Shown here piece after piece: positions 21,231-27,357 of a stretch of 64,000 nt of DNA (positions are counted from its first letter, which is position 1; the number at the start of each line of letters is the position of its first letter). Both the position numbers and the translations under genes were made by a program. The DNA lies in NCBI RefSeq assembly GCF_028714975.1, contig NZ_JAQTLH010000003.1, positions 62,001 to 126,000 of the forward strand, given 5' to 3'. This DNA is from Sulfurimonas sp. (GTDB lineage: Bacteria > Campylobacterota > Campylobacteria > Campylobacterales > Sulfurimonadaceae). A model generated the notes under the pieces. The model was not told the DNA's origin. It was given only the letters and a program-made list of their open reading frames with translations, and searched no databases.

Positions 21231-22487
21231 TTATGCACTGGCTTCTTCTATGATATGCGGAGTTGCCGTGCTAACATTTGTAGTTATATCGTATCCGTCT
21301 CTTCCATTCTCTTTTGCACTATAGAGCATCTCATCAGCACGACTTATTAGCACTTCTTCATCAAGTGCTTCGTCAGCTATACAACAAGCTACACCGATAG
21401 AGACGGTCAGAAATTCATTAACCTTAGAACCTTTATGCTCTATTTTGCTATCTCTTACCACATCACAAATATTGGCAGCAACCGTTGCACTGTCTGATTC
21501 TGATGTTTCGCTAAGTAACACTCCAAACTCTTCTCCGCCAAGCCGAAATATAAAATCACTAGGACGGTTAAGTGCATCTTTTAAAATTTTTGCAACACTC
21601 TTAAGGGCGATATCGCCCTCTATGTGCCCATATGTGTCGTTATATTGTTTAAAATAGTCAATATCAAGCATCATAAAAGTTATATAACTGTGAGTTCTTT
21701 TTGCTCTTCTTATCTCTCTCTCATATATAAGATTAAAATATCTTCTATTGTAGAGTCCCGTTAAAGAGTCCGTATATGAAGCATTTTCTAACTTTTTATT
21801 AGCTATTTTCAATTTTTTCGTGGTTATTTCAAGAGTCGTTTGATCATTTTTAATACTCTTAAATACATAATATGAGATTATCATAACACCAAAAATTACA
21901 ATAACCAATACGGCACCTACTTTTAACAAAATCGAGTCGTATAAATTTAAAAAATTTTTTCTCTCATACTTGGCAATATCAATTTCATACTCAATCAACT
22001 TACTTACCACTTTATGAATATGCGTAATTCTCTCCTCAAAATTGCTAATTGACAAATCTTTAATGTTATTTCCAACTGCGAGTGCATCTAGTATCTTAAA
22101 AAAATAATCGTTTGTTGCTTTTATTTCTGCCGCGGTATACTCTACATATGAAAACTCTTCATATCTTTTAAAATGCGACTCATAATTTTTCCACTCTTTA
22201 TTGATTGTATCTATTGCAGTTTTTATTTGTGCTTTTATCTCATACGCATTTACTTCGGAGTGCTTGGCTTTGTAAATCGTACTTGCTAAATTTCCGTGAT
22301 ATGTTTGAAGAATGGTACTTAGTTCAATAACCGGAACAAGAGAGCCGAAATATAGCGAATCTAAATTTTTTTTCATAGAGTTTAAATTTATCGTACCCAT
22401 AACCCCTATAATAACAAGTCCGATAGTTACGATTATAAATATAAATAAAAGTTTGCTCTTTAGCTTTAAAGCTTCTATAAAATTCAT
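21231..22487 (-). CDS. Membrane-bound diguanylate cyclase
   Basis: 418 residues: transmembrane helix (about 11-31), periplasmic four-helix-bundle-like sensor (about 32-185) similar to the 4HB domain of chemoreceptors, second transmembrane helix (about 188-208), short coiled coil, then GGDEF domain (about 245-400). The active site is RLGGEEF and the inhibitory I-site RPSD lies just in front at the usual spacing, so the enzyme should make cyclic-di-GMP and be feedback-inhibited. No HAMP domain is obvious. Monocistronic, divergent from the Crp/Fnr regulator gene. Confidence 0.9.
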   Translation of the reverse strand: MNFIEALKLKSKLLFIFIIVTIGLVIIGVMGTINLNSMKKNLDSLYFGSLVPVIELSTILQTYHGNLASTIYKAKHSEVNAYEIKAQIKTAIDTINKEWKNYESHFKRYEEFSYVEYTAAEIKATNDYFFKILDALAVGNNIKDLSISNFEERITHIHKVVSKLIEYEIDIAKYERKNFLNLYDSILLKVGAVLVIVIFGVMIISYYVFKSIKNDQTTLEITTKKLKIANKKLENASYTDSLTGLYNRRYFNLIYEREIRRAKRTHSYITFMMLDIDYFKQYNDTYGHIEGDIALKSVAKILKDALNRPSDFIFRLGGEEFGVLLSETSESDSATVAANICDVVRDSKIEHKGSKVNEFLTVSIGVACCIADEALDEEVLISRADEMLYSAKENGRDGYDITTNVSTATPHIIEEASA

Positions 22488-22637: not shown

Positions 22638-23303
22638 ATGAATGAAAAATTAAATTTTATAAAACAACTATCTTTTTTCAACTCCCTCGATAGTGAAAAA
22701 TTAAATCTTATAAATAGCATGTCAAAAATAATCACTCATCCGAAGAACTCAATACTCTATTATGAAAATGATATAAACAATAAAATATTTTTTTTAGTAT
22801 CCGGTCTTTTAAAAGTATATAAAATAGATAAATTTGAAAATGAAATTTTTCTCTACTATATACACAAAAACTCTCTTATTTCCGAACTCACTACACTAGA
22901 TAATGATATGATACGCTGCTTTTCAAATGCCGAATTTATGGAAGAGAGCGTTGTTTTAGAGGTTGATTTTTCAGAGTTCAAAGCAGAATTTTTATCCAAG
23001 AATATATTAAACAATGAATTTATAAATGAGATACTGCTAAAAACCCAGCAGCTTCACTGCGTCGTAAACAGAGAGTTAGTTTTTGATGCAACTGCAAAAG
23101 TTGCTTTTTCTCTATGCGATGACTTGGAGATGTTTAACTCACTCAAAAGACATGAAGTCTCTTTTATGCTCCATATCCAGCCCGAAACTCTTTCTAGGGT
23201 TTTAAACAAACTAAAAAGAAGTGCCATAATTGATATTGAAAATTCTAATATTGTAATCCTAGACAAAAAAATGCTACAAAATATATACAGAGGCGATGCA
23301 TAA
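22638..23303 (+). CDS. Crp/Fnr-family transcriptional regulator
   Basis: 221 residues: cyclic-nucleotide-like beta-barrel (about 10-120), dimer helix, and winged HTH (about 150-215). The recognition helix reads QPETLSRVLNKL, with the E-x-x-S-R arrangement that in FNR reads TTGA half-sites. There is no N-terminal cysteine cluster, so it is not an FNR-type Fe-S sensor; only three scattered cysteines are present. Its stop overlaps the start of the NarX-like sensor by 1 bp, and napA lies downstream with a TTGA-N6-TCAA site in its promoter. Probable regulator of nap, responding to nitrate, nitric oxide or redox through an unknown ligand. Confidence 0.85.
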   Translation: MNEKLNFIKQLSFFNSLDSEKLNLINSMSKIITHPKNSILYYENDINNKIFFLVSGLLKVYKIDKFENEIFLYYIHKNSLISELTTLDNDMIRCFSNAEFMEESVVLEVDFSEFKAEFLSKNILNNEFINEILLKTQQLHCVVNRELVFDATAKVAFSLCDDLEMFNSLKRHEVSFMLHIQPETLSRVLNKLKRSAIIDIENSNIVILDKKMLQNIYRGDA

Positions 23304-24310
23304 TGATAAAATCAAACAAAATAAGTACAAAAATCAAACTCATAGGTGCATTGCTAATATTTTTAATGGCAAGCGTAATAGCAACGACCATATATCTAAA
23401 TCAACAAAATATCAAAGATGCTCTACTTATAAACATCGCGGGCAAGCAAAGAATGTTAACTCAAAAGATAGTAAAAAACATCTTCTACACACACTATAAC
23501 TCCTTAAAAGATTTTCATGAGCTAGATGAAGCGTGTAATGAGTTTATAGATGGATTAAACACCTTAAGACACGGTAATCAAGGCAAAGGTATACTTGTAG
23601 TACCGACATATGAGATATCTAACAAACTCTTAGAAGTCGGCGAACTTTGGGGGAATTTTTACAAAGATGTCGAAGAGTTTAAAAAGCTCTCAAACTCAAA
23701 CGATGAAAAAACAAAAGAGCTTGAAAAAATCATTGCTTCAATATACAAAAATAATACCGTACTATTAAATAATGTTGATAAACTTGTAACCATGTACACA
23801 AATTACAGCGAAGATAAAACCAACTTTATCAAAAGTTTTCAATACTCATCAGGAGCCATACTTTTCATACTTTTCATATACTCGCTATTACAGTTAAAAT
23901 CTATAGAGTCGCACGTTGATTCATTTATGCAGTACTCAAAAATGCTTGTAAACAATGAAGATATATCAAACTTAGTCCCGTTAAAAGTCGAAGCTGAAAG
24001 CGAAAGCGAAATAGTTGAAGTCAGCGATACCATAAACTGCTTTATCAAAAAGATAAACTCTGCCGTAGATTACTCAAATGAAGCACTGCTTCAATCACAA
24101 AAAGCCTCGTCCAAGCTTGAAGAGCTAACCGATGAGTTTGACACGATTTTAGATGAACTAAAAGACAAATCATTGGCATTTAAACATCTAAATAACAGCG
24201 AAGACATGGTTATAGAATCAACCGAAGAGCTAATGAATTCAACAAAAAAACTCTCAAATTTGAAAAAAGAGTTAGACAAACTTATCAAAAGTTGTCAAGA
24301 GCTTAAATAA
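23303..24310 (+). CDS. NarX/PilJ-type nitrate sensor protein without output domain
   Basis: 335 residues: transmembrane helix (about 12-31), a periplasmic domain opening with the P-box-like NIAGKQRMLTQKI (44-56) that in NarX/PilJ-type sensors binds nitrate or nitrite, a second transmembrane helix (about 178-197), a HAMP-like stretch, and a long cytoplasmic coiled coil (about 250-335). No kinase, GGDEF or chemoreceptor hairpin follows; the protein ends in the coiled coil. Translationally coupled to the Crp/Fnr gene and directly upstream of napA. It may signal by contact with that regulator or with a chemoreceptor. The P-box assignment is by eye. Confidence 0.7.
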   Translation: MIKSNKISTKIKLIGALLIFLMASVIATTIYLNQQNIKDALLINIAGKQRMLTQKIVKNIFYTHYNSLKDFHELDEACNEFIDGLNTLRHGNQGKGILVVPTYEISNKLLEVGELWGNFYKDVEEFKKLSNSNDEKTKELEKIIASIYKNNTVLLNNVDKLVTMYTNYSEDKTNFIKSFQYSSGAILFILFIYSLLQLKSIESHVDSFMQYSKMLVNNEDISNLVPLKVEAESESEIVEVSDTINCFIKKINSAVDYSNEALLQSQKASSKLEELTDEFDTILDELKDKSLAFKHLNNSEDMVIESTEELMNSTKKLSNLKKELDKLIKSCQELK

Positions 24311-24401
24311 TAAAAATTTCAAAAGCTTATTTTTATCTTAAATGTTACTTATGTAAACTTTTTTTAAAAAAAATCAAATTTAAGTGGCAAAAACTGTCAA
24401 T

Positions 24402-24444
24402 TTGACTCAAGTCAAAGATTTTAAAAGCCCTAAAGTGATATTAT
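24402..24444 (+). promoter_or_regulatory. napA promoter with FNR-type palindrome at about -42
   Basis: TTGACTCAAGTCAA (24402-24415) is a perfect TTGA-N6-TCAA FNR-type site. An extended -10, TG-A-TATTAT (24436-24444), predicts a start near 24451, placing the palindrome centre about 42 bp upstream, the class II activator position. GTCAA just before (24396-24400) pairs with the left half TTGAC, giving an overlapping second palindrome. The leader is about 84 nt and contains a small hairpin TAGTT/AACTA (24486-24499). Confidence 0.65.
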
Positions 24445-24534
24445 AAATCTGTTAATGGACACCTTAACAAAATATCGAGATGTAGTAGTTGCATAACTAT
24501 TATGTTTTAAAAAAATTATCATATAGGAGAAAAT

Positions 24535-27357
24535 ATGTCACTTTCAAGAAGAGAATTTCTTAAAAGTTCAGCAGCAGCATCTGCAGCAGCAGCGATTGGT
24601 ATGAGTGTACCGGTAGAGCTAGAAGCAGCGGCAGCAGAGGCTGAATGCGACTGGAGATGGGACAAGGCAGCTTGTCGTTTCTGTGGTACGGGTTGTGGAA
24701 TTATGATGGCAACAAAAAACGGTAAAATCGTTGCTGTTAAAGGGGACCCAGCTGCGCCGGTAAATCGTGGTCTTAACTGTATTAAAGGGTATTTTAATGC
24801 TAAAATCATGTACGGTGCGGATAGACTTACTCAACCGTTATTAAGAGTTGATGCAAACGGCAAATTTGACAAAAAAGGTAAATTTGCTCCTGTATCATGG
24901 GAAAGAGCTTTTGATGAGATGGAACTTAACATCAAAAAAGCACTTAAATCAGGCGGACCGGAAGCTGTCGGTGTATTTGCATCAGGTCAATACACAATCA
25001 TGGAAGGTTATACGGCTCTAAAAATGATGAAGGGCGGATTCCGTTCTAACGCTATCGACCCGAATGCTCGTCACTGTATGGCATCTGCGGTTGTTGGTTT
25101 TTATCAAACATTTGGTGTGGATGAGCCTTCAGGTTGTTATGATGATATCGAACTTACAGATACAATCGTAGCTTGGGGTTCAAACATGGCAGAGATGCAC
25201 CCGATCCTATGGTCTCGTGTAACTGACAGAAAACTATCAGATCCAAACAGAGTAAAAGTTGTATCTATCCAAACTTATACTCACAGAACTTCTGACTTAG
25301 CAGATATCGAAATAATCTTCTCTCCAAATACAGACGGTGCTCTATGGAACTATGTTGCTAGAGAAATCGTTATGAGAGATGCTGCTGAAAAAATTATCGA
25401 CTGGGATTTCGTTAAGAAACATATGATTTTTGCTGCAGGTCCTGTAAATATCGGTTACGGTATGAGAAGAAGCGATGAGAAATCTGTAAAAGAGGGTAAA
25501 TATACAGCTCTTGAGATGGAAACAGTTTCTAAAGAGATGAGTAAAAAAGTTTCTGCTAAAGAAGCACCTGCATTGGTACCGTACGGTTACAAAGAGGGTG
25601 ATGTTATGACGAATGTTCCTGGTCACTTAGGGCACTGGGAAATTTCATTTGAAGATTATAAAAAATCTTTAGAGCCTTATACACTTGATTACACTGCTAA
25701 AATCGTAAAAGGTGATCCAGATGAAAAGATCGAAGATTTTAAAAAGAAACTTCAAGCATTAGCAAACCTTTACATCGAAAAAGGTAGAAAAGTAGTATCT
25801 TTCTGGACAATGGGTATGAATCAACATACTCGCGGTACATGGGTAAATACACTTTCATACAATGTTCACTTCTTACTAAACAAGCAAGCTAATCCTGGTG
25901 ATGGAGCATTCTCATTAACAGGTCAACCTTCTGCTTGCGGTACTGCTCGTGAAGTCGGTACATTTACACACAGACTTCCTGCCGATATGATGGTAGAGAA
26001 TCCTGCACACAGAAAAATTACTGAAAACAAATGGATGGTTCCAGAAGGAACGCTAAATCCTGTCGGCGTACAACACATCATGAAAATTCACCGTGATATC
26101 GAAGACGGTTTAATCAAATTTGCATGGGTAAATGTTTGTAACCCTTACCAAGATACTGCATCTGCTCACCACTGGATTAATGCGGCGAGAGAGATGGATA
26201 ACTTCATCGTAACTTCTGATGGATACCCTGGTATTTCTGCAAAAGTTTCTGACCTTATCTTACCGTCTGCTATGATTTATGAGAAGTGGGGCGGATACGG
26301 TAATGCTGAGAGAAGAACTCAACTTTGGAGACAACAAGTAATTCCTGTCGGAGATGCTATGAGTGATACATGGCAATGGGTTGAACTTTCAAAAAGATTT
26401 ACGGTTAAAGATGTTTGGGGCGGATATGCACCGTCAGGTCCAAGAAAAGAAGCTCTTCCAAGCATGATAGAAAAAGCAAAAGCAATGGGATATAACGAAA
26501 ACACTACAATGTTTGAGATTCTATTTGCTAACGATATCGCAAAATCATATAAACTTGACCAAAATGATCCGATTCAAAAAGGATATGACAATACTGAAGG
26601 TTACGGAGACAGCAGAAAAGTTGTAGGAAGTGACGGGAAAGTATTTGAAGGTTACGGTTTCTTTATTCAAAAATATCTTTTCGAAGAGTATGCTGCGTTT
26701 ACTCGCGGACACGGGCATGACCTTGCACCGTTTGATATGTACCATAAAGTTCGCGGTCTTAAATGGCCGGTTGTTGACGGTAAAGAGACTCAATGGAGAT
26801 TTAATGTTAAGTATGACCCGTATGCAGCTAAAGCAGCTAAAGATAGCGGCAACTCACATGCATTCTACGGAACTCTTGCTAAAAAATTAAAAAGCGGTAG
26901 CTTAACAGGCGTCAATAAAGACAGTGAAGAAAAACCGTTAACTAACAAAGCTAAAATATTTGCTCGTCCTTACATGGATCCACCGGAAATGCCGGATGCA
27001 AACTACGATACTTGGTTATGTACAGGTCGTGTACTAGAGCACTGGCATTCAGGAACTATGACTATGCGTGTACCTGAACTTTATCGTGCCGTTCCTGAAG
27101 CTCTATGTTATATGCATCCAAAAGACGCAGAAGCTAAAGATCTTAAACAAGGCGGTTCGTGCTGGGTAGAATCTCGTCGCGGCAAAGTAAAAGCAAGGGT
27201 TGAGACTCGTGGTAGAAATAGACCTCCAAGAGGTTTAGTGTTTGTTCCATGGTTTGATGAAAAAGTATTTATCAACAAAGTATGTTTAGATGCGACATGT
27301 CCAATGTCAAAACAGACAGACTTTAAAAAATGTGCTGTAAAAATTTACAAAGCATAA
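24535..27357 (+). CDS. napA: Periplasmic nitrate reductase catalytic subunit NapA
   Basis: 940-residue molybdenum enzyme that reduces nitrate to nitrite in the periplasm, using electrons from NapB or NapGH. Twin-arginine signal SRREFLK (4-10) with an Ala-rich core. The [4Fe-4S] cluster cysteines are C47, C50, C54 and C82. The molybdenum-ligand cysteine is C181 in ARHCMAS. It is longer than the E. coli enzyme (about 830), as in other Campylobacterota NapA. GGAGAAAAT precedes ATG 24535. First gene of napAGHBFLD; NapD is the expected signal-peptide chaperone. Confidence 0.97.

Follow-up and report, generated by a model that had tools for sequence, protein, structure and literature searches.

The closest described relatives of the locus analyzed here are nitrate receptors, chemoreceptors, Crp/Fnr regulators, and pairs of a regulator with a membrane protein. 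NarX and NarQ have a periplasmic four-helix sensor with a GxxR P-box, transmembrane (TM) helices, and a HAMP-like relay, together with an S-helix/GAF/DHp/CA kinase and a NarL or NarP partner. GxxR is the nitrate-binding motif in NarX, NarQ, and McpN, and replacement of its Arg, even by Lys, was reported to abolish ligand sensing (PMC8199190). The chemoreceptors McpN, which has a PilJ ligand domain with GxxR, and PilJ, which has two PilJ domains, carry a signaling tip. Among the regulators, NssA, NssB, and NssC of Wolinella succinogenes and NssR of Campylobacter are Crp/Fnr proteins that control nap, nrf, and nos genes through TTGA-N6-TCAA sites; no membrane receptor partner of the Nss regulators was described in the literature that we compared. 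The LytTR Regulatory Systems (HdrRM and BrsRM) are minimal pairs, each made up of a transcription regulator with a transmembrane inhibitor, and they differ from both two-component and ECF systems (PMC6193735). In Thermus, DnrT is a CRP-like activator of nitrate respiration, and DrpA and DrpB, separate from it, are a candidate pair for sensing nitrate that is proposed to act on the regulators (PMC6282519).

In the window (the whole 64,000-nucleotide stretch of Sulfurimonas sp. DNA that was analyzed), genes for a Crp/Fnr regulator and a membrane receptor precede napA (Table 1). The receptor shares its sensor, P-box, TM helices, and HAMP-like relay with NarX and NarQ but has no kinase, and it sits beside a Crp/Fnr regulator. 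It shares a GxxR-bearing PilJ domain with McpN and, in its long form, the tandem domains with PilJ, but it lacks the signaling tip of both. Like the LytTR Regulatory Systems, the locus is a minimal pair of a regulator and a membrane protein; the proteins, however, are unrelated, the helix-turn-helix of the window regulator being Crp-type and not LytTR-family, and the pair has a known ligand motif and a HAMP-like relay. Unlike DrpA and DrpB, whose genes lie away from dnrT and for which no P-box receptor role is described, the window receptor is encoded next to its Crp. We consider it likely that the two proteins are a dedicated nitrate-sensing module in which the receptor, having no kinase, controls the Crp/Fnr activator through contact. 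By analogy, such a module would work like a LytTR Regulatory System or an anti-activator pair while standing outside those families. A search of open-licence papers found no account of this pairing.

Table 1. Features of the Crp-receptor-napA locus (positions in the window)
Feature	Position	Strand	Details
4HB_MCP-GGDEF diguanylate cyclase gene	21231..22487	-	Divergent from the pair
Crp/Fnr-family regulator gene	22638..23303	+	221 aa; receptor-paired type
Membrane receptor gene	23303..24310	+	335 aa; TM1, PilJ/NarX-type domain, TM2, HAMP-like segment, coiled-coil tail
P-box INIAGKQRMLTQKI	23429..23470	+	Receptor residues 43-56; nitrate motif G47-K-Q-R50
Second TM helix of receptor	23849..23905	+	Residues ~183-201
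Conserved coiled-coil tail of receptor	24068..24295	+	Residues 256-331; terminal signature ED..I.S.E.L
Crp/Fnr-type palindrome TTGACTCAAGTCAA	24402..24415	+	133 bp 5' of napA ATG
-10-like TATTAT	24439..24444	+	Class II spacing; kept across loci
napA	24535..27357	+	Proposed target; more nap genes downstream

The regulator and receptor reading frames share one base, as the preliminary description of this DNA had stated; the overlap lies within TAATG. Its placement of the pair directly upstream of napA (the placement given in that description) also holds, the receptor gene ending at 24310 and napA starting at 24535. The window receptor matched the Pfam PilJ domain at 1e-18. The two membrane helices and the P-box-like motif noted earlier correspond to hydrophobic helices at residues ~13 to 31 and ~183 to 201 and to INIAGKQRMLTQKI, in which GxxR is intact. 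About 134 amino acids follow TM2. Pfam detected no kinase, GGDEF, or other output domain in the window receptor and no DHp or CA kinase domain in it or its orthologs; an output domain was likewise absent from all 22 window-type orthologs. The only trace of one was a match of the coiled coil to MCPsignal at 17.6 bits, against a cutoff of 34.6, that was confined to the tail and recurred in 2 of the 22 orthologs. A CheA/CheW-type chemoreceptor tip was absent from all members examined. Thus, the earlier statement that the protein ends in a coiled coil without a kinase, cyclase, or chemoreceptor tip agrees with the Pfam results and the 22 orthologs.

Because the 22 orthologs lack an output domain and the length after TM2 is uniform, the receptor is not a truncated gene. 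Among 34 members drawn from many families, 33 had 122 to 152 amino acids on the cytoplasmic side after TM2; the remaining one, at locus L088, deviates only because the score of its second TM helix was below the cutoff used. Pairwise identity was 79 to 82% in the tail, 89% in the P-box, and 60% in the remaining ectodomain. Since the tail is conserved almost as well as the P-box, its presence is not due to chance. An AlphaFold2 model was good for the ectodomain and poor for the tail (pLDDT, <50); its closest structural match was the NarQ sensor-TM-HAMP fragment, and its second was McpN. Pfam finds no HAMP domain, so that "HAMP-like" refers to a segment whose position, residue pattern, and NarQ match suggest such a relay. 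The receptors come in two forms, one of ~330 amino acids with one P-box and one of ~450 to 470 amino acids with two tandem PilJ domains; the tail signature ED..I.S.E.L is common to both.

To survey the pair, we searched 299 genomes of Campylobacterales with profiles for the receptor and for Crp. Among the matches listed, all 98 tail-bearing receptors, which came from many families, had a crp gene directly upstream on the same strand, with gaps of -7 to 67 nucleotides (median, 12). Long-form matches were merged in this count, which relies on estimated 3' ends in a few cases and leaves aside one receptor located at a contig edge, together with a few weak matches. Matches of lower score that covered the ectodomain only were other PilJ proteins. 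We looked for relatives in which the two genes are separated and found none among the matches listed; rather, the pair has been conserved across genomes and, as described below, duplicated as a unit. Its neighbors are usually nap, nor (norCB), nrf, or nos genes, including napA and nosZ; five pairs (L091, L101, L105, L155, and L156) had no N-oxide gene nearby. Where Sulfurimonas-type loci reach far enough, crp is followed by the receptor gene and then napA, and the cyclase gene points away from crp. In genome G297, the long-form receptor gene before napA is in two frames (L120, 7279-8606), reflecting a frameshift or an assembly error. An apparent Crp-receptor fusion in genome G090, in a 681 open frame, was rejected because a TGA separates the two genes.

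The window Crp matched cNMP_binding (5e-9) and HTH_Crp_2 (1e-8) in Pfam, and its cNMP fold is degenerate. In a profile alignment, it lacks the Arg/Ser phosphate-binding pair of the cAMP type, the positions of CRP Arg82 and Ser83 being occupied by C94 and F95. It also lacks the N-terminal cysteine cluster of the FNR type, having no cysteine before residue 94. Its recognition helix is ETLSR. In a tree of 101 Crps, 22 unpaired proteins formed one clade, and the paired proteins fell outside it in a few lineages. N167 and Q181 were present in every paired Crp of the aligned set and in none of the main unpaired clade; F166-N167 and IQPETLSR were common to paired Crps. Near helix D, paired Crps are often hydrophobic where unpaired Crps are charged (e.g., F157 versus K), position 157 being variable among paired Crps (F, H, M, and others). 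Judged from these residues, the helix D region is a candidate receptor contact surface.

Two Crps, at L118 (7117-7812) and L119 (2382-3038), lie inside the paired lineages on long branches and have no adjacent receptor; they are natural cases of receptor loss. No decay of the signature after receptor loss was seen in them: both proteins retain most of the paired-type residues. Thus, these Crps either work without a receptor or have another partner.

The host genome has a second Crp-receptor pair directly 5' of nosZ (L028, 12879-14483; contig C11). Its Crp is 51% identical and its receptor 30% identical to those of the napA-side pair; both genes were thus duplicated together. The nosZ-side receptor had no Pfam match whatever and has lost the nitrate motif. 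GxxR was lost from the P-box of all nine members examined of this Sulfurimonadaceae-type nos lineage; nitrate is therefore unlikely to be the ligand there, and these receptors probably do not sense it. The loss tracks the lineage and not the neighboring gene, since a nosZ-side pair of the nap-type lineage in family f9 (L089) has kept GxxR. Apparent stop codons in some nos receptors were dismissed because the matches appear to extend 5' of the start codon; those nos receptors that were examined have intact called reading frames. A third host Crp/Fnr gene, of the unpaired clade, lies directly after a NosL-like gene on the far side of the nos region (L028, 2016-2645).

The palindrome TTGAC-N4-GTCAA occurs at exactly two places in the 2.06-Mb host genome, 133 bp before napA (TTGACTCAAGTCAA) and 95 bp before nosZ. 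By our own estimate from base composition, two or three occurrences would be expected by chance, so it is the placement of the palindromes, not their number, that is informative. Most loci have the palindrome before napA and nosZ, either perfect or with a single mismatch. A -10-like box lies 22 to 23 bp 3' of it, which puts the center of the site near -41.5/-42.5, the layout of a class II activator. No palindrome was found before crp in any of 19 loci, and autoregulation like that of LytTR systems was rejected on this ground. We infer that the paired and not the unpaired Crp occupies the sites; the unpaired Crp and other Crps with ETLSR could use the same predicted sites.

One of the genomes encodes an NrfA that matches PDB 1fs9 at every one of 502 residues, which we take to be the W. 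succinogenes protein; this genome (G354) thus appears to be that of W. succinogenes. It has exactly three Crps, by nap, by molybdopterin genes, and by nosZ; the nap-side Crp is paired with a long-form receptor of 460 amino acids, and the other two are unpaired. The three are 44 to 46%, 28 to 31%, and 24 to 27% identical, respectively, to the nap-paired Crps of family f18. Published identities of the N. labii nap-side Crp to NssA, NssB, and NssC are 44.8, 29.2, and 26.1%, respectively. Since the values agree, the paired W. succinogenes Crp is most likely NssA, and NssB and NssC would be the unpaired proteins. The window Crp is 44% identical to this presumptive NssA and fits the NssA type both in sequence kinship and in having TTGA-N6-TCAA sites at nap. 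NssA is reported to mediate the nitrate response (PMC6682613), which makes the long-form receptor the natural candidate for its sensor. The link of the pair to nap drawn in the preliminary description is strengthened by this match and by the class II Crp/Fnr site that precedes napA in many lineages. In the W. succinogenes genome, two Crp/Fnr palindromes with a distance of 16 bp lie 5' of napA (L154, 5665-5694). The unpaired Crp directly 5' of nosZ in that genome (L163, 1480-2118) is probably NssC, and a TTGATTTAAGTCAA site lies just before it, at 1398.

In the mechanism that we propose, the GxxR P-box would bind periplasmic nitrate at the interface of the receptor dimer, as it does in NarQ, NarX, and McpN. 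The signal would pass through TM2 and the HAMP-like segment to the enzyme-free coiled coil, which would touch the Crp encoded with it in one operon of overlapping genes, thereby altering the activity of Crp; the conserved tail may be the site of contact. Free or activated Crp would then bind TTGA-N6-TCAA at the class II position before napA and turn nap on. We slightly favor release of a held Crp, that is, an anti-activator, over activation on contact.

Direct control of Crp is the simplest account because the receptor contains no enzyme, no other PilJ-domain protein was found in the host genome, pairing is universal among the matches listed, and the tail is constrained. The suggestion in the preliminary description that the sensor acts on the regulator by direct contact or sequestration is thereby supported; the nosZ-side twin, the predicted binding sites, the long form with two P-boxes, and the conservation throughout the order go beyond that description. 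The operon pairing also fits parallel, separate functions. Crp might regulate nap in response to its own cytoplasmic signal, the receptor being a cotranscribed accessory, e.g., for nitrate taxis or nap assembly. The Crps of L118 and L119, which lack an adjacent receptor, speak for such an arrangement, but the universal pairing, the joint duplication, the occurrence of the pair beside nor, nrf, and nos genes as well, and the strong constraint on the tail make it unlikely. A kinase encoded elsewhere was also looked for. The family resembles a chemoreceptor cut before its tip, and the subthreshold MCPsignal match falls on the tail; the receptor might therefore act through chemoreceptor arrays or mixed receptor dimers, leaving Crp with a ligand of its own, NO or redox. 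Crp/Fnr relatives such as DNR do sense NO directly. Yet the members examined have no tip for CheA or CheW, the absence of another PilJ-domain protein from the host means that it has no NarX/NarQ-type kinase, and linkage to Crp in 98 of 98 cases points elsewhere; we consider such a route quite improbable.

A link through c-di-GMP was suggested by the GGDEF gene that divergently adjoins the pair in Sulfurimonas-type loci: the 4HB_MCP-GGDEF cyclase would supply a Clp-like Crp with its ligand and would itself be tuned by the receptor. In the other families examined, however, the cyclase gene is not beside the pair, and GGDEF matches there fall in unrelated genes. The cyclase was accordingly rejected as a general part of the module and probably lies outside it, and we regard this link as very improbable indeed. 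Returning to direct control by contact, a broader idea can be put forward only tentatively and is rather doubtful: HAMP-type, enzyme-free receptors that control Crp/Fnr proteins by contact, expanded by duplication, may be a new class of transmembrane signaling, whose nos-linked copies, having lost the nitrate Arg, respond to a different cue of N2O respiration, perhaps the gas itself.

According to a 2019 review, Campylobacterota have no FNR or NarP ortholog (PMC6682613). The Nss regulators respond to nitrate, NO, and N2O, and no sensor for them was described in the literature compared. In W. succinogenes, a genetically tractable laboratory organism in which the Crp half has a mutant phenotype, the Crp-receptor pair is a concrete candidate for the sensor of the nitrate branch. 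If the proposal is true, a NarX-type receptor would be coupled to transcription with no phosphorylation step, in organisms important for the turnover of nitrate and N2O.
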